A DNA stretch of 27,483 bases from a virus, in IMG/VR virus record IMGVR_UViG_3300032516_000151, positions 1 to 27,483 of that record. One strand, given 5' to 3'. Shown here in pieces: positions 2,974-18,403 of the stretch. The stretch's first letter is position 1. The number at the start of each line of letters is the position of its first letter. The position numbers and the translations under genes were made by a program. The notes under the pieces were generated by a model. That model saw only the letters and a list, made by a program, of their open reading frames with translations. It made no database searches and had not been told where the DNA came from.

Positions 2974-3927
2974 TTAGATCGCGGCGAGGGTTTCTTGCCG
3001 GGTGATCGAATGGCCGCCATTGCTGGCGTCCGCGCTTTCCTTGATGGGTGCCATCGGCGGCGCGCCGCTGTGGACCTGACGCGGTTGCGGCAAGAGGGCC
3101 TTGCGGTCGTCGATCAGGACCTTGCGGGACGCGGCGTCCGGCGCGGACACGAGTTGCGCCATGAACGCCTCGCTGACGATCTTCTTGTCGTCGATGCTGA
3201 GCTTCGCCGTCTTCAGTTCCTCGGCGATCGCAGCCTTCTTGGCCTGTTCGGCCTCCTTCGCCTTCAACTCGTCGCGCTCCTTGGTGAGTGCGGCGACGTT
3301 CTCCTTGAGCGTATTGGTTTCGACGGAGAGCTTGCCGGCCTCGTCGGTGCCCTGAAGCTTCGCCACGAGGTCCGGTCGGTGCTCCTGAAGCTGTTCGATG
3401 GTCAACTCTTTCAGTTCCACGGAGATGTTCCTTTCCATAACGTCTTCAAAAAGGCCCTTGGTTGTCGCGGGATCTGCCACCAGATCAACCGACTCGACGT
3501 GGACGATCTCTTCGATCGTCGTGCTGCCGTCGCGCTCGCGGCGCTTCTTGGCTTCCACGACATGCGAAAAACCGACGTTCTCGGGCGCATGCTCGGCGTC
3601 CCAGAGAAGTTGTTCCGCGATGGGATGTTTGACATTGAAGTGGAAATCGGCGAACAGGCCATCATCCCGCACGGCGACGTTGCGCAGGACGCCCAAGCGA
3701 TCCTGGTACGACCGCGACTCGCGCGCATGGTTCAGATTGACCTTGATGCCCTCATAGAGTGGGGCGGCCTTCGCGACCGCCTCGGGCAGATAGCGGCGAT
3801 TGTTGCGGGACTGCAGGCCGAGAATCTTTACGCCCTTGAGCACGCCGGTCGCCCGATCCACCGACGGTTTTAGCCCGCGGTTGCTGACGAACTCTTCCAA
3901 GCGTTCCACTGGTGCCTGCTGTGCCAT
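2974..3927 (-). CDS. Prohead maturation protease fused to scaffold-like coiled coil
   Basis: A 317-residue protein. Residues about 25-160 look like a herpesvirus/HK97-type prohead serine protease: NLNHA with candidate catalytic His68, GFSH with candidate nucleophile Ser121, and the typical end of the fold, VDLVADPA, at about 147-154. Residues about 170-245 are a strongly charged, Lys/Glu/Ala-rich coiled coil such as serves as internal scaffold. Fused protease-scaffold proteins of this kind are known in phages and process the capsid delta domain and themselves. The ATG at 3927 has GGAG about 9 bases upstream. The gene sits directly after a terminator-like hairpin and upstream of decoration and capsid genes. 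Confidence 0.75.
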   Translation of the reverse strand: MAQQAPVERLEEFVSNRGLKPSVDRATGVLKGVKILGLQSRNNRRYLPEAVAKAAPLYEGIKVNLNHARESRSYQDRLGVLRNVAVRDDGLFADFHFNVKHPIAEQLLWDAEHAPENVGFSHVVEAKKRRERDGSTTIEEIVHVESVDLVADPATTKGLFEDVMERNISVELKELTIEQLQEHRPDLVAKLQGTDEAGKLSVETNTLKENVAALTKERDELKAKEAEQAKKAAIAEELKTAKLSIDDKKIVSEAFMAQLVSAPDAASRKVLIDDRKALLPQPRQVHSGAPPMAPIKESADASNGGHSITRQETLAAI

Positions 3928-3944
3928 TCCCGCGGCTCCAAAAC

Positions 3945-3984
3945 AAAAAAGCCCGGCGACCCCCGTAGGGATTGCCGGGCTTTT
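3945..3984 (-). terminator. Terminator-like hairpin just upstream of the protease gene
   Basis: Arms GCCCGGC (3951-3957) and GCCGGGC (3974-3980) are flanked by a 6-base A run (3945-3950) and a 4-base T run (3981-3984). The structure can therefore act as a Rho-independent terminator in minus-strand transcription (U run encoded by the A tract), and weakly in the other direction. It ends 17 bases before the protease start codon, after the glycosyltransferase cassette. It either closes the cassette transcript or acts as an attenuator in the leader of the head genes. Confidence 0.65.
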
Positions 3985-4025
3985 CGGCGACACAAAAATG
4001 CCCGCGAACTCAGATTACAACTATA

Positions 4026-4184: not shown

Positions 4185-5057
4185 TCAGAATTTCTCCGAC
4201 CCGCAAATCCTCCGTCCCTCGGAGATGGGTTCCAGCGCTTGGCGGATAATCTGGATGGTTTTCTCGGTTGCAAACCGCTCCACCGCCCACGCCCGCACTT
4301 GATTCCGATCCAAGTCCATCGCCTGCTGTTCTTCTTCTGCTAAATTCGACCAATCTGAGGCAATGACACCAGAAATCCCAGGCACAATCCAGGGAGCGCC
4401 ATGTGGTATCCCAACAGTCGGGCATCCGGCCAACATGATTTCAGCCAGTGCCAGCGGGCCACGATCGTCAGTGGACAGGTACAGACAGCAGCGTGACCGG
4501 CGGGCTACTTCAATTAACTCTTGTCGATGGTAATCACCATAGATCAGGATCGTGGATTGAGGGCAACGATTCTTGGCCCGAAAGGCTTCTCGCAGCAGCA
4601 TTCGATCCTTGACGTAGATCAGCAGATCGTACTCCGCTGACAGTGGGCCTTCAGGTTGCGGTTCGATCGGATAAGACCACAACAGAACGGGTGCCTTATT
4701 GCGTTTGCAGTGTGCTTTAATCAGTTCCGCATACCATGCCGATTCGGTGAACTGGACTGCGCAACTCTCGGCATCCATTAGGCGTTGCTCGTGCGATCCC
4801 CAGCCTGGCTGCGCGGAATTGGCGAATAGGACGTTTGGGCCAAGCACAAATTTCCAGTGCCACTCGGCGAACTGAACCGCCAGCGGGGAATCTTTATAGA
4901 GCCATATCCAGGGAATCTCACCGTTATTCAGTTGTCCGCCAATGCGCAACCATGTGAGTTTTGCAGCGCGAAGGGCCTTCTGTAGGGCCGCCATGCCGTT
5001 TCCGGGCCCATGACCATCTGCGGCGTCCTGTGCACGAATCAAGCGAATGGCAGGCAT
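4185..5057 (-). CDS. GT-B fold glycosyltransferase (GT4-like)
   Basis: A 290-residue protein, last of four glycosyltransferase genes. The C-terminal half resembles the nucleotide-sugar-binding domain of glycosyltransferase group 1: STILIYGDYHRQE (168-180), a VARRSRCCLYLSTDD segment (184-198), and the family signature around Glu206 (LALAEIMLAGCPTVG, 202-216), where the glutamate normally contacts the donor. The N-terminal acceptor domain is short, so the protein is smaller than usual (350-400 residues). The ATG at 5057 overlaps the upstream stop by one base (TAATG). It would act in the cytoplasm and transfer a sugar to an unknown acceptor. Confidence 0.75.
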   Translation of the reverse strand: MPAIRLIRAQDAADGHGPGNGMAALQKALRAAKLTWLRIGGQLNNGEIPWIWLYKDSPLAVQFAEWHWKFVLGPNVLFANSAQPGWGSHEQRLMDAESCAVQFTESAWYAELIKAHCKRNKAPVLLWSYPIEPQPEGPLSAEYDLLIYVKDRMLLREAFRAKNRCPQSTILIYGDYHRQELIEVARRSRCCLYLSTDDRGPLALAEIMLAGCPTVGIPHGAPWIVPGISGVIASDWSNLAEEEQQAMDLDRNQVRAWAVERFATEKTIQIIRQALEPISEGRRICGSEKF

Positions 5058-5818
5058 TAAAACGGCCTTTCGCGGACGATCGGACTTACCATCGGGTAAT
5101 GCAAGTCGAACGGCGGAATCCAAGGATGTAGAGTGGCACTAGAAAGTTGGCAACGCAGGCTTTGCCATGCTGCGCTGCCGGTTGGATCGGCGCGATTGAG
5201 CAGGCCGCTGATATTCTGGTTTCCCCAACAGTAGATGTAACTCGGGGCGTATCCCAGTTCGATCGGGTCGGCCTGACTGACATTCTGCGCCTCCAATTTG
5301 CGCATAAGTCCCTGGTCTTCGTTGCCACTTAACTCTTCTGGATAGCCACCCACGCGCTTTATGGCATCCAACCGGATAGCCCATGCTGGATGGTAAAGCC
5401 GCTCTTTGCGGTGATCGCTCCGATGGCCGGTAAAGTTGGCGGTGAAAATCCAGTTATCATCGGCGACCTGCGGTGACAATACTACGGAAGGGCGCGACCA
5501 GTCGGCGATATCCAATGCGCGCGCTGCTGAGGAAAGATGCCAGGGAAGAAACAGATCGTCGTCGTCAATCGGCAGAATGCCGTCAGTTCCGTCGGGAACC
5601 AACGACAGTACATAGTTGCGCTTGGCCCCCAGACTCGGGAAGCGGTTGGCTACGCTTATTAGTCGCCAGCGGTTACCTTCGCAGCAATTGCCGTACTGTC
5701 CTCCATCGTCCAAGATGACCATGTAGCGATCCTCATGGTCCTGCGCCTCAAAGCAGGCGACGGTGCGTGGCAGAAGATGGGGCCTACCGTAAGTCGATAC
5801 CGTGCAACACAACTTCAT
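5057..5818 (-). CDS. GT-A fold glycosyltransferase (family 2-like)
   Basis: A 253-residue protein. It opens with a GT2-like start (CCTVSTYGRPHLLPRTVACF, 4-23), followed by DDGG (37-40), the usual uridine-binding acidic site, then AKRNYVLSLV and GILPIDDDDLF (80-90), which supplies the metal-binding DxD motif. GNEDQGLMRKL further on resembles the E/D-x-D catalytic-base region of the family. No membrane span is present, so it is a soluble cytoplasmic enzyme. The ATG at 5818 overlaps the upstream stop by one base (TAATG). It has neither a fused domain nor an obvious defect. Confidence 0.8.
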   Translation of the reverse strand: MKLCCTVSTYGRPHLLPRTVACFEAQDHEDRYMVILDDGGQYGNCCEGNRWRLISVANRFPSLGAKRNYVLSLVPDGTDGILPIDDDDLFLPWHLSSAARALDIADWSRPSVVLSPQVADDNWIFTANFTGHRSDHRKERLYHPAWAIRLDAIKRVGGYPEELSGNEDQGLMRKLEAQNVSQADPIELGYAPSYIYCWGNQNISGLLNRADPTGSAAWQSLRCQLSSATLHPWIPPFDLHYPMVSPIVRERPF

Positions 5819-6483
5819 TACCGCTTCTCCTTGAAGGCGGACACCTTCCCGATATGCAGGAAATAGTAGTCGGGGTTTTCAACTACTTCGACGGGCGCAA
5901 TGGCATTCAGAGCGCACTTGGCAAACTGGTTCGCCATCATATTTTCGTGCCAGCCGGCATCGCCCCATTCCTGGTAGGGCCCGGTCGTCTCTAGCCAACG
6001 CCGGTGGGACAAATGGGGGTTGTCGGCTATCGGCCAGGGACCGCGCTTGTCAACCGTTGCCCAGCGCCCGTTGGGAAATGCGAACTTCGTATGCGCAACC
6101 CAGAATCGCACTACGGCAATCGATTGCTGCGTTTCTAAGATCGCTGCTGCGGCGTTCAAGTCGAGCGCACGACACAATTCCCAGTCGTCCTGAACGTAAA
6201 GGCGAATGTCGTCGGGACATTGCGCAAAAGCGAAGTTCAAGTGTGCACCAAGATTGGCTTTATCGGCGTGCCAGATAAGTTGTGCATCGAACTCGGCGCA
6301 CAGATTTGCCAATTCGTCTTGCGCCCAGTCGTCCACACCCTCATGCTCGGCCGAAACGAGATATCGCAACTGCCGCCCCGTTGCGGAAAGATGTCTCGCC
6401 AAAGCCTGTAGGACGTGGCGCAAATAATGCAACCGAGCATCGGAGTTTGGCCACGTCGTTATCAGGACGCTAAGTGGGTTCAT
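5818..6483 (-). CDS. Probable glycosyltransferase, GT-A like
   Basis: A 221-residue protein starting MNPLSVLITTWPNS. The arrangement resembles family 2 enzymes: an N-terminal strand-turn (LSVLITTWPN), an EFDAQLIWHADKANLGAHLN segment and then RLYVQDDWEL (94-103), where QDDWE (98-102) is the probable DxD-type donor/metal site. Similarity to canonical GT2 is weaker than for its neighbours. The ATG at 6483 lies inside the upstream gene (14-base overlap) and has no clear ribosome binding site, which suggests coupled translation. The acceptor is unknown. Confidence 0.65.
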   Translation of the reverse strand: MNPLSVLITTWPNSDARLHYLRHVLQALARHLSATGRQLRYLVSAEHEGVDDWAQDELANLCAEFDAQLIWHADKANLGAHLNFAFAQCPDDIRLYVQDDWELCRALDLNAAAAILETQQSIAVVRFWVAHTKFAFPNGRWATVDKRGPWPIADNPHLSHRRWLETTGPYQEWGDAGWHENMMANQFAKCALNAIAPVEVVENPDYYFLHIGKVSAFKEKR

Positions 6484-7210
6484 ACGGCCACGGCCCCGTG
6501 TCGGAAGTGAACTTGCCTTCTGCGCACAAGTGCTCGTACAGTTCGCGGGATTGCGCCATATCTTGGCGGTTGTCTGTCCGGTGGTCTTGGTGATATCCAA
6601 GAATCTCGTCGTGCCACTCGGGCTGGATGCCGTGACGAGCAAGGCGCGTTTCCAGCCAATCATCATCGAACCCGTAGCTGATGAAACGCTCGTCCATTCC
6701 ACCGACCGCGTAAATATCCTGTCGCCAGTAGGCCCCCAGGAACGTGTGCGGCAATCGCCGATGCTTGCTGTGGATGTACCAGCCGTCATGCGAGAAGGCG
6801 ATGGGCCACAACGATGGCGATTGACCTTCTGTCGGTTTGACTGCTTTGCAGGCTGCCACGACGTACTGGCGCGGTTTGAGTGAATTGCAGAGGCGTTCTA
6901 TCGTGTCGCCGCTGCCGTGGATGATGTCGTCCGTGTGCCAGATAATGATCTGGCCGCGGGCTTGACGTAAAGCGATGTTGAAGGGCACGGAAGGGCTGCG
7001 CCAGTTCTCTTTTCTGGGGAGCGTCATCAATCGTATTTGCGGATACCGCGATAGGACCGCCGGCGTTTCATCGGTCGATCCATCATCCGTGACGATTACC
7101 TCGAACTCGAATGGCGGGTGCTGCGCGAAAATGCTTTCTAGTGTACGGACGAGCAATGGCGCATGGTCGAAAGTCGGGAAGCACACCGAGCAACGCGGGG
7201 CGGGATTCAT
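6470..7210 (-). CDS. Family 2 glycosyltransferase
   Basis: A 246-residue protein, the clearest glycosyltransferase here. It has the textbook N-terminus (CSVCFPTFDHAPLLVRTLES, 7-26), then FEVIVTDDGSTDETPAVL with the nucleotide-binding DDGS at 42-45, then NIALRQARGQIIIWHTDD with the metal-binding acidic pair at 94-95. A later region around YGFDDDWLETRLARHG resembles the family's ED-type catalytic-base segment. It is cytoplasmic, with no membrane segment. It is the first of the four-gene cassette; its ATG at 7210 overlaps the preceding stop (ATGA), and its end overlaps the next gene by 14 bases. Confidence 0.9.
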   Translation of the reverse strand: MNPAPRCSVCFPTFDHAPLLVRTLESIFAQHPPFEFEVIVTDDGSTDETPAVLSRYPQIRLMTLPRKENWRSPSVPFNIALRQARGQIIIWHTDDIIHGSGDTIERLCNSLKPRQYVVAACKAVKPTEGQSPSLWPIAFSHDGWYIHSKHRRLPHTFLGAYWRQDIYAVGGMDERFISYGFDDDWLETRLARHGIQPEWHDEILGYHQDHRTDNRQDMAQSRELYEHLCAEGKFTSDTGPWPYEPT

Positions 7211-7540: not shown

Positions 7541-9268
7541 TTACTCCGTTGGTCTCAATGCTCGGCGACCGATTCGTTTCGCCTGCTGCGGGTGGGCGGC
7601 CGTGGCGGGTTCGGACTTGAACGGTCGTGCCGTAACCTTCTGTCGGCCCGCCACGGTGCGCCCACTCAAACCCGCGCCGCCCTCGCCGGCTTCTGGCGGC
7701 GGGAACTCCTTTTGGTGGTCCTTCTGCAATTCCGTCTCGCGGTCAGGTTCCAAGCCTGCTCGGCGGCACATCGTCTGCGGCGACATCGCCCCGCTCTGCA
7801 CCAGCAGTTGATCGGCCTGCGTCTCGGACAAACGGTTGCGGGCAATGATCTGCGGCGTGTTCGCGACGACCTTCAGCTTCTCCAAGGTGTCACCGGGCAA
7901 CCGGCCATCCTCGATCGCCAGCTTGATTCCATCGCGCAGCATGTCGAGGTCGTCGCGGACCATCGCGGCCTGGCGCCCCCTAATGGTCTTGTCCATCGGG
8001 CCTTCGCTGACCATACGGGCGGCGAAACTACTCCCACTGCTATCCGCCCAAATGAAATCGGCCAAGCCGACCGCACCGGCCGCGCACTGTAGTTCCGCCT
8101 TCACGGCACAGACGATCTTGTCCGTATCAATGTGCTGCGACGGGAACTCATACTGCGTCTGATCGTTGGTATCGATGATCGCTGCGTCTGGCAGGTCATC
8201 GACCGTCTTGAACGTCACGCCGCCCTTGGTGGCTTTCATGCGGTTGCCGAGATACGCCTGGACGGTCGAGAGGGTGGCGTTGATGTGCTTGCGGATGAGC
8301 GCGATCTTCTCGCGGTAGTGCACCAGCTTGCCCATCGCGATCACCGTCCGCTGCGCCTGATCGAGCCGGGGCGCAATCGCATAGGGCGTCGGCAATCCGC
8401 GCGGATCGTTCAGGTCCACGTTGAACTTGCGGTGCTGGATCTCCGCCTTGTCGATCACCGTGTCCCAGCGTGCGTTGCCGGCGGCGTCCGTAGTGCCCAG
8501 GTAGTCGGCGGGACGAAGAAAATAGCCTTGGGCATCCTGATAGTTGCCGCCCCTGAATTGGATGCCGAACCACACGTCATCCTTTGGGCCGCGCGTCGGC
8601 GGGTCCCACAACAGCCGCGGTTCCTGAAACCGCAGCCGCAGCACCCGGTAGCCCTTCTCGTTCTCCTCGTGGAACTTGCGCAAGAGGAACTCGCCGTCGC
8701 GGTCGCCGCGGCGCAGCTTCTCCGCCTGGTAGTTCCGCCAATCGTTGGCTTCCCTGATCTCATCAATCACTTCTTGCACGTTCTGCAACGCCTCGTCGCT
8801 GACCTTCCCCTTGGGGTCGCGGGGCATCACGGTATAGGTGTGGCCGGTGTCCACCACGTAGTTGGCAAGGTTCTGCTGGATCGTCCACCAGTAGGGATTC
8901 AATAGGCAGAAGGCGCGCGAGTGCGCGCGGATCATGTTCAACTGCCACAGGTTGATGTACGCACAGGCGCTAAAGCCAGGGCGGTTCAGGGCGTTCGCGT
9001 AGGCAGTGGCGCGGTTGTAGATCACCATTCCCGAGCCGTAGCGCACCTGGCCGTCGTCGCCGAAAATAAACGCATCGCTCGAATCGAACACGTCCTGCCA
9101 AATGTCGAACTGCTCGCGCAGGTCGTATAGTTTCTGGGCTTTGGCCAAAAGCGATTGACGAGAGAACTCCGCCTCTTCGTCGATGATGTGCTGCGTGACC
9201 TGCGGGTCGTCGCCGCGCTGGACCGACTCTTCGACATTTTGCCGCGAGAACCAAGTGCGAATGCTCAT
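7541..9268 (-). CDS. Phage portal protein
   Basis: A 575-residue protein coded directly after the large terminase with an ATGA overlap. The sequence fits a portal: an N-terminal charged region, a long mixed alpha/beta middle with many aromatic residues, a helical segment (AQRTVIAMGKLVHYREKIALI) of the type seen in the portal stem/wing, and a proline/glycine-rich disordered C-terminus from about residue 520. The portal ring forms the DNA channel at one capsid vertex and docks the terminase. The size is in the upper normal range (400-600). The assignment rests on position plus overall resemblance; no catalytic motif exists for this family. Confidence 0.85.
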   Translation of the reverse strand: MSIRTWFSRQNVEESVQRGDDPQVTQHIIDEEAEFSRQSLLAKAQKLYDLREQFDIWQDVFDSSDAFIFGDDGQVRYGSGMVIYNRATAYANALNRPGFSACAYINLWQLNMIRAHSRAFCLLNPYWWTIQQNLANYVVDTGHTYTVMPRDPKGKVSDEALQNVQEVIDEIREANDWRNYQAEKLRRGDRDGEFLLRKFHEENEKGYRVLRLRFQEPRLLWDPPTRGPKDDVWFGIQFRGGNYQDAQGYFLRPADYLGTTDAAGNARWDTVIDKAEIQHRKFNVDLNDPRGLPTPYAIAPRLDQAQRTVIAMGKLVHYREKIALIRKHINATLSTVQAYLGNRMKATKGGVTFKTVDDLPDAAIIDTNDQTQYEFPSQHIDTDKIVCAVKAELQCAAGAVGLADFIWADSSGSSFAARMVSEGPMDKTIRGRQAAMVRDDLDMLRDGIKLAIEDGRLPGDTLEKLKVVANTPQIIARNRLSETQADQLLVQSGAMSPQTMCRRAGLEPDRETELQKDHQKEFPPPEAGEGGAGLSGRTVAGRQKVTARPFKSEPATAAHPQQAKRIGRRALRPTE

Positions 9269-10689
9269 AACCCCAGTCCCGTTTCAGTAAAGAGCCGCAA
9301 AGCCATTTCGGCGGCGTCGGGTCCATCGTCATGTTCCGCGTTCGGGAACTCCCTTAACTGCTGCACCAAAAGCTGCGTTCCGAGCGAGCCGAGCTTGAAG
9401 CGAAACTTCTGCCGCGCCAGGAACGGCCCAAGCCGTTGGATACGCGCTTCTTTCTTGATTCGCTGCGAACTAACCAACACCAGTGGCATCAGCACCTTCG
9501 CTTCCTGCCCGTGTTGGTCGAGATATTCCGCCAGAACGGTCTTTCCGAACTCTTCCTCCACGCCGAACATTTGGGCGCGAAATGCTTGCTGCAATTCCAC
9601 GGCCCGGTCGCCGATGTCCACCACGTTGCGGTCGTTCGCCATGTCCGCTTCGATGTAGAACAGCCCGTCGTGCCACTGCATCTTGACGAACGCGCTGTAG
9701 TCGCCGAACCTCCCTCCTACGCCCTTCGAATCGTCCAGGGCGATGACTTTCGATCCCTCCTTGGAGTCCGGCCATTGATCGAACCACACGTCCGGCCCGA
9801 ACCATTCCGGCGGCCATTCGGAACCGGAGGCCAGCGGGTTTTGCTGATGCAGCGCCTCGAAGTCGCGGGGGTTCTGCGCCTTCAGCACCACCAGGTCGTG
9901 TTCGTCTTTGTGGGCTGGCCAAAGTGCTTGCCCCATCTGCCGCGGGTCGCACGAGTGCGTCGAAATCCCGGTGTGCAGCGAGGGGAGACTGATAATCTGC
10001 CACGGATCGGAGTCCTTCTCCGCCATCCGCGCGATGAGCCGGCCCGCCAAGTCGTCCAGGTTCCAACGCGTGTGAACGATGACGATCGGCGCATCTTTCG
10101 AGAGCCGATTGCTGAAGTCGGTGGTAAACCAGTTCCATACCGAGTCTCGGATAGTCCTCGATTCCGCGTCCGCCCGGGTGCCGAATGGGTCGTCGATAAT
10201 GCCCCGCTGCGCCGGATAGCCGGCAATCCGCTTGCCCACGCCGGCAGACCGCAGAAAGCCGCCGTGCTCCATCACCTCGAAATAATCGAGCGTCCGCCGA
10301 TACTTCTTGCCGGACGTTTGCGCGATCTCTGTATCGGGAAACAGGTCGCGGTAGAGTTCGCTGTCGATGATCCGCTGCACGTCGCGGTTCATCGCCCTCG
10401 CCAAGTCGGCGGAGTGCGAACAGGCGAGAATCTTGAGCCCTGGGTTGCGCCCCAGACAGTACGCCGGCAAGCGGCGCGTGACAAGCTCCGATTTCCCCAC
10501 TTGCGGTGGGGTAAAGATCATCAAGCGTGGGCATTTGCCTTGTTCCCATCGATCAAGCGCCTCCGCTATCACCTCGTGGTGCCACCACTGTTGGTACTCC
10601 GGCATCGTGTAAATCGTGAACGCCAGCAGGCAGTTCCTCGCCGCCTGCCGCACGTCCTCTGCGTTCATCCGTAAGGCTGAACTTGCCAT
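9265..10689 (-). CDS. terL: Terminase large subunit
   Basis: A 474-residue DNA-packaging motor. ATPase motifs: a deviant Walker A PPQVGKSE (61-68), Walker B GIIDDPF (163-169) and HTRWN (206-210) as the coupling motif. Nuclease motifs: ALDDSKG (acidic pair Asp319-Asp320) and HDDGPDAAEMA (Asp454, Asp455, Asp458), which form the RNase H-like metal site. It cuts concatemeric DNA and pumps it through the portal. The start at 10689 lies 137 bases inside the putative small-subunit gene, which is unusual. A second ATG at 10668 is possible; neither has a strong ribosome binding site, so coupling with the upstream gene is likely. Confidence 0.95.
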   Translation of the reverse strand: MASSALRMNAEDVRQAARNCLLAFTIYTMPEYQQWWHHEVIAEALDRWEQGKCPRLMIFTPPQVGKSELVTRRLPAYCLGRNPGLKILACSHSADLARAMNRDVQRIIDSELYRDLFPDTEIAQTSGKKYRRTLDYFEVMEHGGFLRSAGVGKRIAGYPAQRGIIDDPFGTRADAESRTIRDSVWNWFTTDFSNRLSKDAPIVIVHTRWNLDDLAGRLIARMAEKDSDPWQIISLPSLHTGISTHSCDPRQMGQALWPAHKDEHDLVVLKAQNPRDFEALHQQNPLASGSEWPPEWFGPDVWFDQWPDSKEGSKVIALDDSKGVGGRFGDYSAFVKMQWHDGLFYIEADMANDRNVVDIGDRAVELQQAFRAQMFGVEEEFGKTVLAEYLDQHGQEAKVLMPLVLVSSQRIKKEARIQRLGPFLARQKFRFKLGSLGTQLLVQQLREFPNAEHDDGPDAAEMALRLFTETGLGL

Positions 10690-11236
10690 TGCCTGCCGCT
10701 GCTAATACCCGTCGTTGATGGTCTGTGAGGGCGGTGGTTGCATTGATATTTACAACGGGCCCTCGGAAGGTCATGGCCTTTGGGCCAAGCTTCCGCAGGT
10801 CATCAGAGGCGAGTTGCGCCTTGATGATGATGTGTAGAAAGATGGCCTTCTTTGTTTCGTTGAATTGTTCCCAGGCTTTCTTTTGCACGTGCTTGTAGGT
10901 CAGCAGCGCCAGCCCTAGTTGCGTGGGCGGATCATCCGCCGACAGTTCCGCTATCGCGAGTTGTTTCACCTGCGCGACTTCATCGGCAGTCAGCCGATAT
11001 CCGGCTTTCTTCGTTGCCAGGAGTAGCGGATGACCCTCCAAAATGAAGTTTAAGACGGCGGCGCGACGATGGGCACGCGGGCCAATTAGCCGCTTGCTCT
11101 GCCGCGCCTTGGCAGCGTCCACGACGTCCCCGACCTGGCCGAGGAGCATCGCAAGCTTGTCCTCGTTTTCTGTAAAGGCTGGCGCGAGAGGATCGCCGTT
11201 ATCGCTGTCGCCCGCCAAAGCGTTCTTGCGCGCCAT
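10553..11236 (-). CDS. Putative terminase small subunit
   Basis: A 227-residue, helix-rich, basic protein encoded immediately upstream of the large terminase. An N-terminal segment (RAHRRAAVLNFILEGHPLLL) followed by AGYRLTADEVAQVKQ could be the DNA-binding helix-turn-helix, but I cannot confirm it. The last ~45 residues are encoded in the sequence shared with the large-subunit gene and are Arg/Gly-rich, unlike the rest, so they may be little constrained. The ATG at 11236 follows the upstream stop by three bases without an evident ribosome binding site. Function is assigned by synteny. Confidence 0.6.
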   Translation of the reverse strand: MARKNALAGDSDNGDPLAPAFTENEDKLAMLLGQVGDVVDAAKARQSKRLIGPRAHRRAAVLNFILEGHPLLLATKKAGYRLTADEVAQVKQLAIAELSADDPPTQLGLALLTYKHVQKKAWEQFNETKKAIFLHIIIKAQLASDDLRKLGPKAMTFRGPVVNINATTALTDHQRRVLAAAGNGKFSLTDERRGRAAGGEELPAGVHDLHDAGVPTVVAPRGDSGGA

Positions 11237-11795: not shown

Positions 11796-13007
11796 TTAGT
11801 CAATTCCCAAACCACCACCGCCACCGGCGCCACTCGGATGCACGGCTGCATAGGCCGCTACTGCCGCAGCAGCAATAACCGCGTTATCGCCGGTCGTGTC
11901 GGCCGACGACCCCACCACGTTATCAACCGTTGTTCCAATCGCAAGGAGCGTGGCCGTCAAGTCGCTGGTACCGGCCAGCGTACCGATGTTGCTGGCTCGC
12001 AAAGTGCCGTCATTTTTTCCAAGTAGGTTCGCGTTCGGGTAGATGTAGGCTTTTTTGGCCGAGACAGCCGCGGCGTCAGTTGCCAGTTGTGCCGCCTGCG
12101 TTGTTGCTGTAGTCGGGTATGTACCAGTGAAGTCAGTAAGGCCATATTGAACTGTGTTCAGAACATTGTCCACTGCCGGCATCTCAGAGTCACCGTAAAA
12201 CTTCTTTGAGTTTCCATCGGCGTCATTGAATTTAAGCAATACTCCATCAGCTATTTTAATCACTCCACCGCCAACTGCATTGCCAACTCCGGTTAAATCT
12301 GTTCCGTTAATGGTACATGTACCAGACAAATTAACAGTTCCAGAGGAACCGGCTACACTTCCGCCTTTTGTTAGAGTTACGGTACATGTGCCACCGTTAA
12401 CAATACAGCCGTGGGCATAGGATGCACTACCTCCGGTAGCGGTAGTTACGGTACATGTGCCACCGTTAAAATAACAGCCGTGGGCATAGGATGCACTACC
12501 TCCGGTAGCGGAAGTTATAGTACATGTGCCACTGTCAACATAACAGCCGTAGGCATAGGATGCACTACCTCCGGTAGCGGAAGTTATAGTACATGTGCCA
12601 CCGTAAACACTACAGCCGTGGGCACCGGAATTGCTACCTCCGGTAGCGGTAGTTACAGTAAGTGTGCCACTAATCACGTAGCAGCCGTAGGCACCGGAAG
12701 CGCTACCTCCGGTAGCGGCAGTTACAGTAAGTGTCTTTCCTACTGTAATTGTAATGGCTGCTACGGTACCGGCGCTTACGTTTGCTGCAATTACTGATAT
12801 TGCGTTTCCCAGAACAATCGTTCCGGCAGTATGAGTGGTTCCGTTTGCGGCCCTAGCCGCAATCAGCGCGCATGTATATGTGCTTCCGTTTGCCCCGTCA
12901 AGCGTCAAGGCAAACCCATTAAGGTAAATGTTATCACCTGCGGCCGGTGCGCCTCCCGCATTGCACGTGGACCAAACCGCTGCTCCTGCCAATGTAATGT
13001 CTGCCAT
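11796..13007 (-). CDS. Repeat-rich beta-structured protein, candidate fibre or adhesin
   Basis: A 403-residue protein of Gly, Thr, Ala, Ser and Val. Residues 92-229 are six tandem 23-residue repeats of the form TCTVTTATGGSASYAHGC plus a short variable end. Each has a cysteine in the GC(Y/S/I) position and most have one in the TCT position, so paired cysteines would stack in a beta-solenoid. The N-terminal ~90 residues are also beta-rich; the C-terminal ~100 residues are Ala/Thr-rich and end in a glycine run (GAGGGGGLGID). Such solenoids are common in phage fibres and surface adhesins. AGGAG precedes the ATG at 13007. G+C looks lower than in the terminase region. No signal peptide. Confidence 0.7.
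   Translation of the reverse strand: MADITLAGAAVWSTCNAGGAPAAGDNIYLNGFALTLDGANGSTYTCALIAARAANGTTHTAGTIVLGNAISVIAANVSAGTVAAITITVGKTLTVTAATGGSASGAYGCYVISGTLTVTTATGGSNSGAHGCSVYGGTCTITSATGGSASYAYGCYVDSGTCTITSATGGSASYAHGCYFNGGTCTVTTATGGSASYAHGCIVNGGTCTVTLTKGGSVAGSSGTVNLSGTCTINGTDLTGVGNAVGGGVIKIADGVLLKFNDADGNSKKFYGDSEMPAVDNVLNTVQYGLTDFTGTYPTTATTQAAQLATDAAAVSAKKAYIYPNANLLGKNDGTLRASNIGTLAGTSDLTATLLAIGTTVDNVVGSSADTTGDNAVIAAAAVAAYAAVHPSGAGGGGGLGID
12321..12734 (-). repeat. Six tandem 69-bp repeats inside the beta-structured gene
   Basis: Six exact-length units of 69 bases (23 codons) encode residues 92-229 of the gene at 11796-13007. The central units are nearly identical at the DNA level; the outer units have diverged (for example the sixth loses the ATGG and GC elements). 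This indicates expansion by unequal recombination or slippage. The constant length with codon-phase periodicity shows selection at protein level. Confidence 0.9.
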
Positions 13008-13366: not shown

Positions 13367-13459
13367 TTACATAATTAGCCGGGCCACAATCACAATCGCC
13401 ACACACGCGGCGAAGCAGATCGCAGGCACGGCGGATAGGTCGGGGCGGGCGGTCGTCAT
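13367..13459 (-). CDS. 30-residue single-span membrane peptide
   Basis: This short ORF starts with ATG at 13459, overlapping the stop of the preceding coiled-coil membrane gene as ATGA, and ends at a TAA at 13367-13369. The peptide begins MTTARPDLSA and then has a continuous hydrophobic stretch (VPAICFAACVAIVIVARLI) long enough for one membrane span. The tight coupling and the clean hydrophobic profile argue that it is real. Small coupled membrane proteins near lysis genes are often holin, antiholin or spanin parts; that role is inferred from context only. Confidence 0.5.
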   Translation of the reverse strand: MTTARPDLSAVPAICFAACVAIVIVARLIM

Positions 13460-13803
13460 TTTGTAATCACATGGTTCAAGAAGTACCCTACTAGAAAACT
13501 AAGCGCTACGAGCGCTGACCCAACACCGATGATCCAAGCCAAGTTCCGCTCGACAACTTCGATCCGAGCTGTTGCAGCCCTCTCGGCAATGTCAAATCGG
13601 ACAGTAAGTGCCTTATGGCCTTCGTCGTACACATCGCGGCGCAGAAAAACTTCACGATCCTTGACAACCTCCGACCGCAACTGATTCAGCCCATCCAGAC
13701 GCCGCTCCAGTTCCGCGTCAGATCGGGCAGACAACTTCTCGTGGTCTTCCAGCAGCCGCTCAAAGTATTCGCGTAGCTCAACATTTTGCTGGTCGGACAC
13801 CAT
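13456..13803 (-). CDS. Coiled-coil protein with C-terminal membrane anchor
   Basis: A 115-residue protein. Residues 1-85 form a highly charged helix (EYFERLLEDHEKLSARSDAE ... RRLDGLNQLRSEVVKDREVF). Residues about 88-110 (LAWIIGVGSALVALSFLVGY) are a membrane span, leaving a very short tail. It resembles the small tail-anchored coiled-coil proteins often coded in phage lysis regions, whose exact role is unsettled. There is only a weak ribosome binding site before the ATG at 13803. It is coupled to the 30-residue membrane peptide downstream. Confidence 0.75.
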   Translation of the reverse strand: MVSDQQNVELREYFERLLEDHEKLSARSDAELERRLDGLNQLRSEVVKDREVFLRRDVYDEGHKALTVRFDIAERAATARIEVVERNLAWIIGVGSALVALSFLVGYFLNHVITK

Positions 13804-13929
13804 TGGCTCACTTCTTCTCGGGAAGGATTGTTATGCGATCGCTTCGGCTTCTTCTCGCGTCATGATTTCGCCACCTGCTTCGTCGGTTCCATCTTCGGTC
13901 GTGCCTTTGTGATCTCGCCGTGCGTAGCG

Positions 13930-14352
13930 TCACTCCTTCGCGCTGACCATCTTCAGTCGCCACCGTTTGTCGCGCAACTGCTCAAACACCGAGCCCTGGC
14001 GTTTCTTCAATTCCGTGTACACGGCCCCAGCCGACTTCTCCATCGCCGTCGCCACCAGGGAGGCGGACGAAGGCCCAGCGTGTTCGAGGTACGTTTGAAT
14101 CTGCTGCCACAGCTTCGGGCCGGAGCCATTGCTGCCGGCATGTGTGGCGGGCTGCGGGACTGTCGCGGCAGTCCTCTTTCCGGCGGGCAAGCCAGCCAGT
14201 TTCCGCACCTGCCGCATCAGACCGCGCTTCGCAACGATCTGCTTCTCCAACTCGTCAATCTCCTCTTGGATGATCGAGAGTTCCTCGCGAATCTCCTCCG
14301 GGTTCGCACCCTTAAGGGCTGCGAGCGCCTCGCTGATCGTGATGTTGGCCAT
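13930..14352 (-). CDS. Coiled-coil protein with possible winged-helix C-terminus
   Basis: A 140-residue protein. Residues 15-52 are an acidic coiled coil (EEIREELSIIQEEIDELEKQ), then a basic linker with Pro/Thr, then 80-135, whose pattern (LWQQIQTYLEHAGPSSASLV ... SAGAVYTELKKRQG ... RWRLK) resembles a winged helix in which a recognition helix is followed by a beta wing. It might be a DNA-binding or structural adaptor protein. AGGAG lies about 6 bases before the ATG at 14352. The 126 bases between its stop and the next gene contain only ORFs of 10 codons or so, which I do not call. Confidence 0.65.
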   Translation of the reverse strand: MANITISEALAALKGANPEEIREELSIIQEEIDELEKQIVAKRGLMRQVRKLAGLPAGKRTAATVPQPATHAGSNGSGPKLWQQIQTYLEHAGPSSASLVATAMEKSAGAVYTELKKRQGSVFEQLRDKRWRLKMVSAKE

Positions 14353-14453
14353 TGCCGACTCCTATTTCTGCACCCTCAAAACCGGCCGCCGTGGTGCGCT
14401 CGGTCGTCTTCCCGATTCGCGGCGTCCCCCGACGGCCGGCCGTTGCAGGAGGA

Positions 14454-15032
14454 CTACTGCTTCGTCGCCGCGTAGACCTTGATCGCATCCGCTCCGACCA
14501 GCACGCAGTACTGCCAATGGCCTTTGATGCGGTGCCAGATTATCAGGCGCGGGATCGAGCCGGCCGCCCGCAGCGCGATCACCAGCGAGCGATGCACTAT
14601 CGCGTCGATGCGGACAAAAGCACCCTTGGCCCGCAACTGCGGGTACAACGGCGGCAACGCTCGGCAGGGCGTACACTGGTCAGCGCACACCAGCACCAGC
14701 AACGGCTTACCTGTGCGTTGATACTCAGCCACGGCCGCATTGTAGGCCGCGTATTGAGGCTGTATCAGGAATTCGCCTTGCGTCGGTTGCCAGGCAGGCG
14801 TATCGGCCAGCCCTACGGACGCAACACACAGTACCGCGGCCACCAACATCATCGGCAGCACGACCGCCCCGAGCAACAGCCGCAGGGTGTTGCGTGCGGT
14901 CTTCAGGGCCGCCTCGCCGTCCACCACATCCTGTTGAGCCTTGGCCGCCGCCTGCTCTGCCTGGAGAACCCTTTGCGTCGCCTGCTGTACCGCGTCAATC
15001 GCGGTCGCCTCTTCCGCTGGAATGCTGGGCAT
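14454..15032 (-). CDS. Membrane-anchored thioredoxin-fold protein
   Basis: A 192-residue protein. The N-terminal 50 residues are a charged/Ala-rich helix, then a membrane span (about 51-75, LLLGAVVLPMMLVAAVLCVA). Residues 88-190 look like thioredoxin: a KPLLVLVCADQCTPCRAL strand-loop-helix with the CxxC pair Cys120/Cys123 and an additional Cys116, and a SIP motif (159-161) in the place of the cis-proline loop. If the span exports the C-terminal domain, it would act as a periplasmic disulfide reductase or isomerase. GGGAG precedes the ATG at 15032. It follows the trypsin-like protease gene by 41 bases. Confidence 0.75.
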   Translation of the reverse strand: MPSIPAEEATAIDAVQQATQRVLQAEQAAAKAQQDVVDGEAALKTARNTLRLLLGAVVLPMMLVAAVLCVASVGLADTPAWQPTQGEFLIQPQYAAYNAAVAEYQRTGKPLLVLVCADQCTPCRALPPLYPQLRAKGAFVRIDAIVHRSLVIALRAAGSIPRLIIWHRIKGHWQYCVLVGADAIKVYAATKQ

Positions 15033-15073
15033 AAAAAACTCCCTTTAAGAATTTTGGTGTGAGTGGAATGAAA

Positions 15074-16795
15074 CTACTTCGGCGTGATGGCGCTGATGGC
15101 AGCCGCCTTTGCTGTTTCGGCCGCCGCCTTCGCCTGGGCGACGTGGCCGGTAAGCTGATCGATCAAACCGGCAATATCTGTCGCCCCGCGGCTGGCGAGA
15201 TTCGCCAACGGAACAATCCCTGGATGCCCGGTCGCCGCCGCGGTCAGCTTCGCCGCCAGCTTCTCAATTTCCAGCGGATCGCCCGTCGCCTTCTTGTTCT
15301 TGATGTCCTTGACCACCAGGCAAACGAAGATGACGGCAACGCCCGCGGCCACGATCAAAATTATCAGCCGTGTGTCTCCGTGACTTTCCTTGAGGCTGGC
15401 GATTTTCTCGTGGATCGTTTCTTTAGCCGCCTCCAGATCCACCTTAATTCGACTGGCGTTCTCCCCAAGTTTCTCGCGGGCCTCGTCCCGATTCATGGCG
15501 AACCGTTCCTTCAACGTGCCGTGATCTTGGATCACCTGCTCCAGCTTCGCGTGGTCTGCTTCAACCGCCGCCGCTTTCGCCACTGCGGCCGTCGCCGTCT
15601 CGGTTGCCGACTTCGCCAAGTTGGCCGCCTCAGTCGCCTTCTTGTCGGCCGCATCTGTGGCTTCGCCCAACTTCGCAAAGCCATCGTTGACCTGCTTCAC
15701 AAAAGCGGGATCGGGCGGGGCGGAAACCGGAGTGGAGGCGACTGGCGATGGTACAGGCTGCTGCTGCTGCGCCGCCTCCATCCGGTCCGCGATGCGATTC
15801 AGGGCCGCCGTCACTGGGCTGAGGTCCGGCGGAGCCTGGTGAATGATCGGCTGGGGCATGGGTTCGAATTGCGGGGCCGGCAATGTTGGGTACGGATTCC
15901 CGCTCCCACCACGGCCGCCCTGAATGTCGATCTCGACTTTGTTGCGCCAGGGAAGCACCGAATCGCCCCGCGATTGCTGGCCGCCGCCCTTACAGCCCCC
16001 GGGCCCGCACTGCCCGCCTGGACATTGCACCTGGACCATCGGAGCCAGAATCGCCGGCTTGTAGACCACGGGCACCAGAGGAGCCGACGACGCCTTTTTG
16101 GCAATCGGCATGGAAGCGGTCCGCTGCTCCAGTGCCCGATAGATCGATTCGAGACTGACTGCCAACCCGGCGGAATTGTCCGTCGCCCGGGAGTTGAGTA
16201 AGCCCACGATGCGCGTTCCGTCCGCGTTCAAGATGGCCGAGCCGCTGCGGCCGTTGGATGGCGGCGGAGTAAACTCGAAACAGCTTCCATTCGGGTAGCG
16301 AAGAAAATGCCCCTGCCAGGCCGTTGACCACGCTCCGTTGGCGCATCCAGCGGAGGCGAGCGTCAGGCCGGGCGAGAGGATCGTCCCGCGATCGGCCAGC
16401 GGAATAGCCCGCGGCAACCTCCCGCCAAACGCTGCGGCGTCGATGACCAGCACCGCCGTGTCAGCCGCCTGGTCGCGTAAGACGAGCGTGGCAGACAGCG
16501 GGGCCGACTGGTGGCCGTTGCTCCAAAATTCACACGCAAGCTGCTGTGACGTGGCCACGTGGGCACACGTCAGCACCAGCACTCGGCCGCCATCAATCCG
16601 GTAACAAGTGCCCGTACCCACCCCTCCATCCGTGGCTTTGATCCGGCATGTGGCCGCCAAGGCGTCATCAATTGCGGCACTGCATATGGCCGCCGCCACG
16701 GTGAAGACCACCGCCACTATGATGGCGGTGGTCAACAAGACGAACAACTCCACGAAACACCCGAAATCACGCCTGCTGTTTCTGAAGATTCTCAT
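15074..16795 (-). CDS. Membrane-anchored trypsin-like serine protease
   Basis: A 573-residue protein with an unusual layout. Residues 15-42 are an N-terminal membrane anchor or uncleaved signal. Residues 47-225 form a chymotrypsin/DegP-type protease: His79 in LTCAHV, Asp112 in AADTAVLV and Ser184 in NGRSGSAIL form the expected triad. A low-complexity linker follows (CPGGQCGPGGC at 258-268, Pro-rich 300-362), then an Ala/Lys/Glu coiled coil (365-472), a second span (477-496) and a cytoplasmic-like helical tail. The linker cysteines may form disulfides. The ATG at 16795 has GAGGG upstream and overlaps the preceding gene by 29 bases. The substrate is unknown; no PDZ domain was seen. Confidence 0.8.
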   Translation of the reverse strand: MRIFRNSRRDFGCFVELFVLLTTAIIVAVVFTVAAAICSAAIDDALAATCRIKATDGGVGTGTCYRIDGGRVLVLTCAHVATSQQLACEFWSNGHQSAPLSATLVLRDQAADTAVLVIDAAAFGGRLPRAIPLADRGTILSPGLTLASAGCANGAWSTAWQGHFLRYPNGSCFEFTPPPSNGRSGSAILNADGTRIVGLLNSRATDNSAGLAVSLESIYRALEQRTASMPIAKKASSAPLVPVVYKPAILAPMVQVQCPGGQCGPGGCKGGGQQSRGDSVLPWRNKVEIDIQGGRGGSGNPYPTLPAPQFEPMPQPIIHQAPPDLSPVTAALNRIADRMEAAQQQQPVPSPVASTPVSAPPDPAFVKQVNDGFAKLGEATDAADKKATEAANLAKSATETATAAVAKAAAVEADHAKLEQVIQDHGTLKERFAMNRDEAREKLGENASRIKVDLEAAKETIHEKIASLKESHGDTRLIILIVAAGVAVIFVCLVVKDIKNKKATGDPLEIEKLAAKLTAAATGHPGIVPLANLASRGATDIAGLIDQLTGHVAQAKAAAETAKAAAISAITPK

Positions 16796-17393
16796 AACAA
16801 TCCCTCTGCTGTGCGCTAGCGCATAAAGTGAACTGGTAGCGATAAAAGTCGGACCGGGCCAGATCACCCGGCTCAACCCAATGGTCAGCGAGATTAGGAA
16901 CCGGCTTGTGGCCGCCAGCGTGATCCGCATGGGCGCAGGCGCCCGAACAGACCCACGGCTTTCCGTTTTGCTCCCGGTCTTCAGTCGGCGGAGTGAAAAA
17001 CCAGCGAACGAACGGCAGGTGGACCAAGGCCATTTTCTTGATGTCGAGCCAGGCATACCGCCGGCCCATCAATTGCCGCATGGCCTTCAACGCCCGTTTG
17101 CTGCTGTAGTGCACATCGTTGTGGGCGTTGGTGCGGTACACGTCAATCCGCCCGCCGTCGGTCTCCAGGTAATTCGACGCCAGCACCGCCCGGCCGCCGT
17201 ACTTGCTGTGCATTTCGAGCACGAACAGATCATCGCCCCACCAAGCGGCCTTGGCGGCGTGGGAATACTCCGATCGCCCGGCCGTCGCGATGGCGTGGGA
17301 TTCTAGAGCGGCCCAGTCAGCGACGAAAAGAAGCATGTCCGCGTTGCGGATCAGCTTTCGGACTTCAGAGTACACCCGGTAGGTACGTTGCAT
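16767..17393 (-). CDS. Permuted papain-fold (YiiX/NlpC-like) peptidase
   Basis: A 208-residue protein. The order of conserved residues fits the circularly permuted NlpC/P60-papain group (YiiX/YaeF, DUF830): an ADMLLF strand (18-23), YSHAA with His45, an acidic residue in LFVLEM (Glu60), GRRYAWLD (110-117), then PWVCSG with Cys149 as the nucleophile. In classical papain the cysteine precedes the histidine; here it follows. Members hydrolyse peptide or amide bonds, some in cell walls. The start is uncertain: ATG 17393 fits the domain, ATG 17444 adds 17 residues, and neither has a clear ribosome binding site. It could serve as an endolysin, but no signal peptide is evident. Confidence 0.65.
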   Translation of the reverse strand: MQRTYRVYSEVRKLIRNADMLLFVADWAALESHAIATAGRSEYSHAAKAAWWGDDLFVLEMHSKYGGRAVLASNYLETDGGRIDVYRTNAHNDVHYSSKRALKAMRQLMGRRYAWLDIKKMALVHLPFVRWFFTPPTEDREQNGKPWVCSGACAHADHAGGHKPVPNLADHWVEPGDLARSDFYRYQFTLCASAQQRDCYENLQKQQA

Positions 17394-17585: not shown

Positions 17586-17936
17586 TCAATCGTCAGGCTC
17601 GTCAAACCCAGGACGGCGCAGGGCCTTGGCCCGCAATTTTATTTCCGCAAGTTCGCATTCGTGAGTTTTACGGCGGCGAGCAGCAGCAGCCACGTCCTCG
17701 CTTGTGCAATCCGGGTGGCGCAACTCCGGCGATAGTAACGCCAGTGAACCGTAGACATGGTGAAGGCACCCCGGACCGCACCACCTGATGTTCAACAGGA
17801 CCTCGCGACTGGTGTGTAATACATCCTCGACGGTCTCGATCCCGGCAACCTGAAGCATGTTGGCAGTCCGCTCCGGCAGCCAAATCTCGGCGATGGACAT
17901 TTCGAGAAGGATGGCCGAAATATTGAGGCGGGACAT
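17586..17936 (-). CDS. Stand-alone RNA polymerase alpha-CTD-like protein
   Basis: A 116-residue protein. Residues about 14-68 read like the C-terminal domain of the RNA polymerase alpha subunit: IAEIWLPERTANMLQVAGIE then TVEDVLHTSREVLLNIRWCG and a LHHVYGSLALL helix. Arg23 and Asn26 align by eye with E. coli alpha Arg265 and Asn268, which contact UP-element DNA, while the second helix-hairpin-helix contact (GKKS) is changed to GPGC. The C-terminal 45 residues are charged and unrelated. It could bind DNA or sigma/activators and redirect host polymerase. The start is uncertain (ATG 17936, ATG 17900 or TTG 17954); none has a strong ribosome binding site. Confidence 0.7.
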   Translation of the reverse strand: MSRLNISAILLEMSIAEIWLPERTANMLQVAGIETVEDVLHTSREVLLNIRWCGPGCLHHVYGSLALLSPELRHPDCTSEDVAAAARRRKTHECELAEIKLRAKALRRPGFDEPDD

Positions 17937-18015
17937 ATCAAGCCGATTGAACAAGTGTTCTGTACCCTTGCGTCTCCGTGCCCTGCGTGGCCGATCGCGT
18001 GTCGCGCAGGATATC

Positions 18016-18033
18016 GTCGCGCTTCAGCGCGAC
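18016..18033. repeat. Perfect inverted repeat upstream of the alpha-CTD-like gene
   Basis: Arms of 7 bases, GTCGCGC and GCGCGAC, are separated by TTCA. It overlaps the edge of direct-repeat copy 2 and lies about 80 bases upstream of the alpha-CTD-like start. It has no T run, so it is not a typical terminator. It could be an operator or RNA hairpin. Copy 1 of the direct repeat lacks this dyad. Confidence 0.6.
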
Positions 18034-18068
18034 ATAATCAGACAACATCTGTCCCCGCTGCTGGGGCG
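18023..18068. repeat. 46-bp direct repeat, copy 2
   Basis: Partner of 17512-17557 (41 of 46 identical, five substitutions, no gaps). It overlaps the last ten codons of the HTH gene (18038-18403) and extends 15 bases past its stop. The two copies bracket the alpha-CTD-like gene with a spacing of 511 bases. The same CAGA-N5-TCTG and CCCC/GGGG dyads are present. Possible roles are an operator, a REP-like element or a trace of a duplication. Confidence 0.85.
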
Positions 18069-18403
18069 GTGTGCTGTTCTTGCTGCGTGGCACGGCGGAC
18101 GCGGCGCTCTATTGCCCAGGCGGTCAGTCCGGGCGTGCCGCGAACTCCAAGGCGTTCTGCCATCGCCGCGATGTGGGTCCACACCGTCCGATAATCGCGC
18201 CGCAGCGTGCGCGCGATCGCCTTAATGGAGAAGCCGTTGCCCAATCCCTCCATGATTTTCAATTCCTGCTTGCTGAAGGTGGCCGCTGACTCGCCGCAGG
18301 CGCAAGCGATGGAGCGCGGAAACTTGCAGGCCGTGACCGAGGCGCTCATGTCACGCCCACACTTGCAGAGGTATCGCCGTGTGACGAGTGTTTGCGCTTT
18401 CAT
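18038..18403 (-). CDS. LuxR-type HTH regulator with N-terminal cysteine cluster
   Basis: A 121-residue protein. Residues 43-101 match a LuxR/GerE helix-turn-helix: FSKQELKIMEGLGNGFSIKA then IARTLRRDYRTVWTHIAAMA and ERLGV, with the TVWTHI recognition helix. Residues 10-38 contain Cys13, Cys15, Cys26, Cys34 and Cys36 in CxC...CxC pairs, a likely zinc-binding knob; no receiver or autoinducer domain is present. It probably regulates transcription, perhaps of the late genes just downstream. The ATG at 18403 has a strong GGAGGT 7 bases upstream. The 3' end overlaps direct-repeat copy 2. Confidence 0.8.
   Translation of the reverse strand: MKAQTLVTRRYLCKCGRDMSASVTACKFPRSIACACGESAATFSKQELKIMEGLGNGFSIKAIARTLRRDYRTVWTHIAAMAERLGVRGTPGLTAWAIERRVRRATQQEQHTAPAAGTDVV

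Follow-up and report, generated by a model that had tools for sequence, protein, structure and literature searches.

A conserved hydrolase-protease pair as a candidate envelope-release module of planctomycete phages and a chromosomal capsid cluster

To our knowledge, next to nothing is known of how phages exit from planctomycetes, a group with an unusual envelope, and the question is raised by a block of genes in the IMG/VR virus record IMGVR_UViG_3300032516_000151. The whole of this linear record (27,483 bases) is referred to here as the window and represents an incomplete phage genome with its genes on the minus strand. A sequence-only reading had proposed that five adjacent genes at positions 13367-17393 form an envelope-breaking module, in which a papain-fold peptidase, a trypsin-like protease and a thioredoxin-fold reductase, helped by small membrane proteins, would suit a disulfide-linked protein wall. 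Here, we find that two of these genes, encoding a permuted NlpC/P60 enzyme of the YiiX/BcPPNE type (called pap below; 16767..17393) and a membrane-spanning trypsin-like serine protease (15074..16795), recur together in viruses and on planctomycete chromosomes. We put the probability that this pair serves planctomycete phages, and a related, chromosomally fixed capsid cluster, as a module for envelope release (lysis or egress) at about 0.5.

The first two pap sequences retrieve 10 viral contigs in a scan, and a pap search across 84,980 species genomes of bacteria and archaea yields 22 loci, all titled planctomycete and many of them Pirellulales, in line with the host that had been guessed from the window alone. 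By tblastn, pap, the trypsin and the capsid of the chromosomal cluster have no matches among 50,697 phage records. A single-sequence scan recovers no viral relatives of the window trypsin, and finding them required an alignment of its subtype. Pap and trypsin recur together in about 30 independent loci, so that their pairing is more than chance, and in 27 of the 30 loci having sequence beyond pap the next gene is the trypsin. In the relatives, pap and trypsin are followed in order by one of two proteins (FED or NTD), a small protein that has a coiled coil and an N-terminal span, and then a ParB-like protein, an ABC-ATPase/GNAT protein, TerS, TerL, portal, protease and capsid, with the pair placed directly upstream of the ParB-to-portal stretch. 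The ParB-like protein and ABC-ATPase/GNAT fusion stand ahead of the terminase in nearly all relatives (e.g., L015:5388-7183) and are absent from the window. Two distant viruses (L160 and L161) also carry a pap-like gene, a trypsin and NTD or FED, arranged differently, and the two enzymes co-occur even where they are unlinked (G638 and G641). The virus of L160 (500-4383) has a ribonucleotide-reductase-like gene content and two trypsin-like proteases near its pap-like gene, and one large viral contig (L161:8042-8527 and L177:18651-19265) encodes two YiiX-like permuted enzymes plus a trypsin. From these comparisons, the conserved core consists of two genes, pap and the membrane-spanning trypsin; the proposed module holds for these two, and the remaining genes of the block fall outside it.

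Natural fusions tie the two enzymes more closely. In the planctomycete genomes G182 and G602, a single open reading frame (ORF) joins pap, through a positively charged stretch and a membrane span, to the trypsin domain, which a coiled coil and a C-terminal span follow, and G417 shows the same pap-span-trypsin arrangement in frame-broken form. The fusions argue that the two enzymes are functionally linked and, combined with the positive-inside rule, that pap is cytoplasmic and the trypsin domain periplasmic, a topology predicted from charge and gene fusion. The charges flanking the spans of the window trypsin and thioredoxin agree, both domains being predicted outside, which is where the sequence-only reading needed them.

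Pap (208 aa) has neither a signal peptide nor a membrane span; its start is taken at 17393, and an ATG further upstream would lengthen the gene to 17444. All 11 aligned homologues keep His45, Glu60, Tyr113 and Cys149 unchanged, and the motif is present in further relatives. A His and then a Glu ahead of a C-terminal catalytic Cys, plus a Tyr, is the arrangement of permuted NlpC/P60 enzymes, and the His-Glu spacing of 15 equals that of YiiX and of BcPPNE, whose catalytic set is H49/E64/C154/Y127 (PMC3142127). The AlphaFold2 model of pap matches BcPPNE (3kw0; Foldseek E 1e-6, VIA Z 12.5), E. coli YiiX (2if6; Foldseek E 0.04, VIA Z 8.4) and the human phospholipase/acyltransferase PLAAT3 (Z 6.5). 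Since these scores well exceed the Z of only about 2-4 obtained against peptidoglycan-cutting relatives, pap stands nearest to lipid-type enzymes and not to wall hydrolases. The permuted papain fold is thereby borne out, and the role of wall peptidase that had been assigned to it is not, the fusions in addition placing pap in the cytoplasm. Permuted NlpC/P60 enzymes have been proposed or shown to be lipid-active, and the type VI secretion system toxin Tox-Act1 is a membrane-disrupting phospholipase (PMC12994826). The most likely activity of pap is hydrolysis of acyl or amide bonds in lipids or lipoproteins on the cytoplasmic side of the membrane. No Pfam family matches pap, and the label "enoyl-CoA hydratase" (PHROG phrog_1128) is rejected as a mislabel, its fold and residues being those of NlpC/P60.

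The protease (573 aa) begins with an N-terminal span (residues 17-35), followed by a Trypsin_2 domain (PF13365, full-length match, E 6e-11), a Cys-rich and coiled-coil linker, a second span (477-495) and a short, positively flanked tail, as expected for the two-span trypsin described earlier. Of 35 homologous domains aligned, among them one that is truncated, nearly all retain its H79/D112/S184 triad, and Cys motifs occur in trypsin linkers. The next gene (14454..15032) encodes a membrane-anchored protein of 192 aa with a span at 52-70. Profile matches to it are weak, the Pfam score lying under the curated cut-off; a CTPC active site (C120/C123), the cis-Pro position, a confident model domain and Foldseek together support the beta-alpha-beta-alpha-beta-beta-alpha thioredoxin fold that had been read from the letters. 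No relatives of this protein are recovered in the viral scan, and a thioredoxin-like gene adjoins the trypsin in one other related virus only (L159), where it follows the protease and the terminase is a different one. By this distribution, the thioredoxin is an accessory of the window phage, outside the conserved core.

The two small membrane proteins that had been noted are present as well: a coiled-coil protein of 115 aa with a C-terminal span at 91-109 (13456..13803), which is holin- or helper-like by architecture only and has a coiled-coil counterpart with a C-terminal span at a comparable place in L158, and a single-span membrane peptide of 30 aa (13367..13459), whose start overlaps the stop of the preceding gene. 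All five genes are confirmed in place, and a sixth ORF, missed before, encodes a soluble protein of 140 aa with no membrane span and no family match (13930..14352), which brings the block to six ORFs, all on the minus strand. This ORF does not recur alongside pap and trypsin, and neither, it appears, does the 30-residue peptide; the expected conservation extends to pap and trypsin but, apart from the pair in L159, not to the thioredoxin, the 140-aa ORF or the peptide.

On planctomycete chromosomes, the pair is part of a packaging and capsid cluster of about 13-17 kb, whose last genes are the capsid gene and a few small ones. The flanking host genes encode TPR, MogA, CoA-binding and EEP (exo/endonuclease/phosphatase) proteins, and XRE, F77 and beta-lactamase-fold proteins; about 12 of the 17 inspected genomes share them on at least one side, and four of the 17 clusters clearly lie at other loci. 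The cluster is found at this shared host locus in Pirellulales-type chromosomes G002, G003, G004, G008, G330, G381, G386, G407, G424, G446, G454 and G462 (loci L040-L042, L046-L050, L057-L059, L108-L121 and L126-L127). EEP is itself a common host gene (73 of 98 genomes of the order). The capsid gene occurs in 123 of 347 genomes of the order, in single copy in 122 and with 54-100% identity to the query, and 60 of the 65 genomes with pap also have the capsid (Fisher p about 1e-26). An even draw across the phylum finds the capsid in 15 of 294 genomes at a loose cut-off, two of these with at least 60% identity; a cluster so rare does not extend across the whole phylum.

Median dN/dS is 0.21 for pap and 0.15 for the trypsin, within the range of all genes tested (0.15-0.25), which indicates purifying selection. 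Agreement between host and element is mixed. Across nine genomes, the distances calculated for cluster genes and for the TPR host gene are correlated (r 0.62-0.80); against the EEP host gene the correlation is weak or, for some genes, lacking (r 0.05-0.43), and the host-congruence test for pap rested on 4-5 genomes, too few to be meaningful. In G309, a broken-up trypsin remnant adjoining EEP and then host genes is all that is left at the locus (L172, about 9623-11029), which makes it a decayed cluster at the same place. In addition, four genomes (G311, G340, G342 and G346) have packaging genes at the same place behind EEP, with pap and trypsin replaced by a coiled-coil protein, a subtilase and a CxxCH (haem-binding-like) protein. 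In loci L162, L163, L174 and L175, this subtilase variant lies at about 9-14 kb in element orientation. That a subtilase fills the slot of the pair beside the kept packaging genes suggests that proteolysis is the retained function there.

No integrase or wall hydrolase is recognised in the compact chromosomal clusters. In G330, G386, G407 and G446, the head genes are followed by host genes with no adjoining tail genes, and G004 and G182 have further genes downstream of the cluster. We did not read the chromosomal relatives simply as prophages, given their shared host flanks and the lack of a recognised integrase; G005, G006, G182 and G316, with different flanks, may nevertheless be prophages. 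By its resemblance to known examples, the chromosomal cluster looks like a candidate gene transfer agent (GTA), a resemblance tempered by the four clusters at other loci and by those with no tail genes beside them, and our literature search found no described GTA in planctomycetes.

How would such a pair release particles? Pap and trypsin would act late in infection as an inner-membrane pair, in which pap acts on lipids or lipoproteins from the cytoplasmic side of the inner membrane and the trypsin, anchored at both ends and with its catalytic domain and coiled coil in the periplasm, cleaves periplasmic or envelope proteins. In the window phage, the periplasmic thioredoxin would perhaps reduce disulfides, either those of the substrates or those within the Cys-rich linker of the protease itself, and the small membrane proteins might serve to open the inner membrane or to weaken it. 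Gene identities, folds, conserved catalytic residues, synteny, fusions, selection and the host group are what the sequences show, and the topology, substrates, timing and lytic role are inferred. We recognise no peptidoglycan hydrolase (muramidase, amidase or transglycosylase) in the window, and none is among 25 of the 27 Pfam families listed for two related viral records, consistent with the earlier suggestion of non-standard lysis genes. Several observations weigh against a release module. The window and its viral relatives are fragments, so that a canonical lysis set may lie elsewhere in the window phage; three relatives (L009, L011 and L022) have no trypsin; the pap model is of middling confidence (AlphaFold2 confidence score pLDDT 68); the subtilase variant has no apparent signal peptide; and neither small membrane protein has a statistically supported holin match, the 115-aa protein matching a holin family at E 0.14. 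Of the doubts, the incomplete viral records, the loci that lack trypsin and the place of pap among tail genes in G638 weigh most.

The absence of adjacent tail genes in the four clusters named above and the nearness of pap to lipid enzymes also fit another route, in which pap remodels lipids, the protease loosens the envelope and membrane-wrapped particles, often tail-less in the chromosomal clusters, leave a cell that does not burst. A planctomycete phage has been reported to be released without lysis, and its authors suggested vesicles (PMC10945688). That phage is not known to carry pap or trypsin genes, tail genes may sit at other loci, and G004 and G182 have their further downstream genes; we regard non-lytic vesicle-type egress as unlikely.

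NlpC/P60 peptidases occur in the tails of other phages and GTAs, and the linkage of pap and trypsin to packaging genes is fixed, which raises the possibility that they process capsid, internal or membrane-associated assembly proteins or aid DNA entry. G638 speaks for this and against release, since its trypsin lies ahead of the terminase and its pap between a gp10-like neck gene and tail genes, a position from which a virion role is possible. However, a trypsin with N- and C-terminal spans would be unusual for a virion protein, and a separate head-protease gene (the g2974 family) is present; such a role has, in our estimate, a small chance of being correct. The pair might instead alter the envelope during infection or lysogeny, for example as a superinfection block, or act as a cell toxin, given that permuted NlpC/P60 domains serve as antibacterial toxins (PMC12994826) and that the slot is variable, holding the trypsin pair or the subtilase set. 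The strong long-term linkage to late packaging genes, the purifying selection and the lack of a recognised immunity-like gene make a host-takeover, exclusion or conflict module rather improbable. Finally, the set adapted to a disulfide-linked protein wall is very doubtful: the predicted periplasmic placement of both thioredoxin and trypsin domains, their neighbourhood in L159 and the Cys motifs of the linkers favour it, but other module loci have no thioredoxin, so the reductase drops out of the set, pap is placed in the cytoplasm by the fusions, and planctomycetes have lysozyme-sensitive peptidoglycan (PMC4432640), which together leave the wall argument weak.

Within the window, the block sits between small regulator genes and the terminase. 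From right to left, an Erf annealing protein, a helicase and a Holliday-junction-resolvase-like nuclease are followed by a LuxR/GerE-like small protein (18038-18403) and an RNAP alpha-CTD-like small protein (17586-17954), which lie immediately upstream of the block as possible late regulators (17586-18403). The window phage carries replication genes, of which none is recognised in the chromosomal clusters. To the left of the block lie a 403-aa protein built from TATGGSASYAHGCYV-type repeats (11796-13007), TerL (9265-10689) and portal (7541-9268), the latter two being downstream packaging genes common to the chromosomal clusters, and then three to four glycosyltransferase-like genes (4185-7210) not there in the relatives examined. 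The protease-like gene g2974 (2974-3993) and the capsid-region gene g740 (740-2449), both homologous to genes of the relatives, complete this side; the two regulator-like genes, TerL, portal, g2974 and g740 are all on the minus strand.

For planctomycete phage release, the named catalytic residues and the short gene list provide testable candidates, and the chromosomal cluster lies partly in genomes assembled as single contigs, perhaps of cultivable strains. The branch of permuted NlpC/P60 enzymes to which pap belongs has been tied to phospholipase toxins only recently, and the fact that it is repeatedly paired with and fused to a membrane-spanning protease points to a joint membrane-and-periplasm mechanism. 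More tentatively, an ancient and undescribed GTA-like cluster at a fixed Pirellulales-type locus could be combined with a new release machine that dispenses with peptidoglycan hydrolase and is also found in related phages, namely a cytoplasmic lipid hydrolase coupled across the membrane to a periplasmic serine protease; we hold this wider reading to be possible rather than probable. If the chromosomal cluster does make particles, it would be a candidate GTA in planctomycetes.

The candidate GTA cluster resembles GTAs of the RcGTA type in that its packaging and capsid genes occur in single copy and for the most part at one host locus, are accompanied by no recognised integrase or replication genes, are under purifying selection and have left a decay remnant at that locus. 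It differs from them in an unrelated capsid (no match in the phage records), in the lack of adjacent tail genes in several clusters and in the pap-trypsin or subtilase slot. Pap shares with BcPPNE, YiiX, PLAAT (HRASLS) and Tox-Act1 the permuted order and the fold, and with BcPPNE the His-Glu spacing; it differs in an identity of only 8-14%, in having no matching Pfam family, and in its phage and capsid-cluster context with natural fusion to a membrane-spanning trypsin. The protease has the full-length domain and intact triad of Trypsin_2 (PF13365) and differs in being set between two spans with a coiled-coil stalk and in being fused to or paired with pap. Like the lambda-type endolysin-holin-spanin cassette, the block holds a signal-less soluble enzyme, small membrane proteins and a putative periplasmic envelope-disrupting protein near the terminase; unlike that cassette, it has no recognised muramidase, amidase or transglycosylase, its soluble enzyme is of a lipid-targeting type, and its periplasmic protein is a serine protease.

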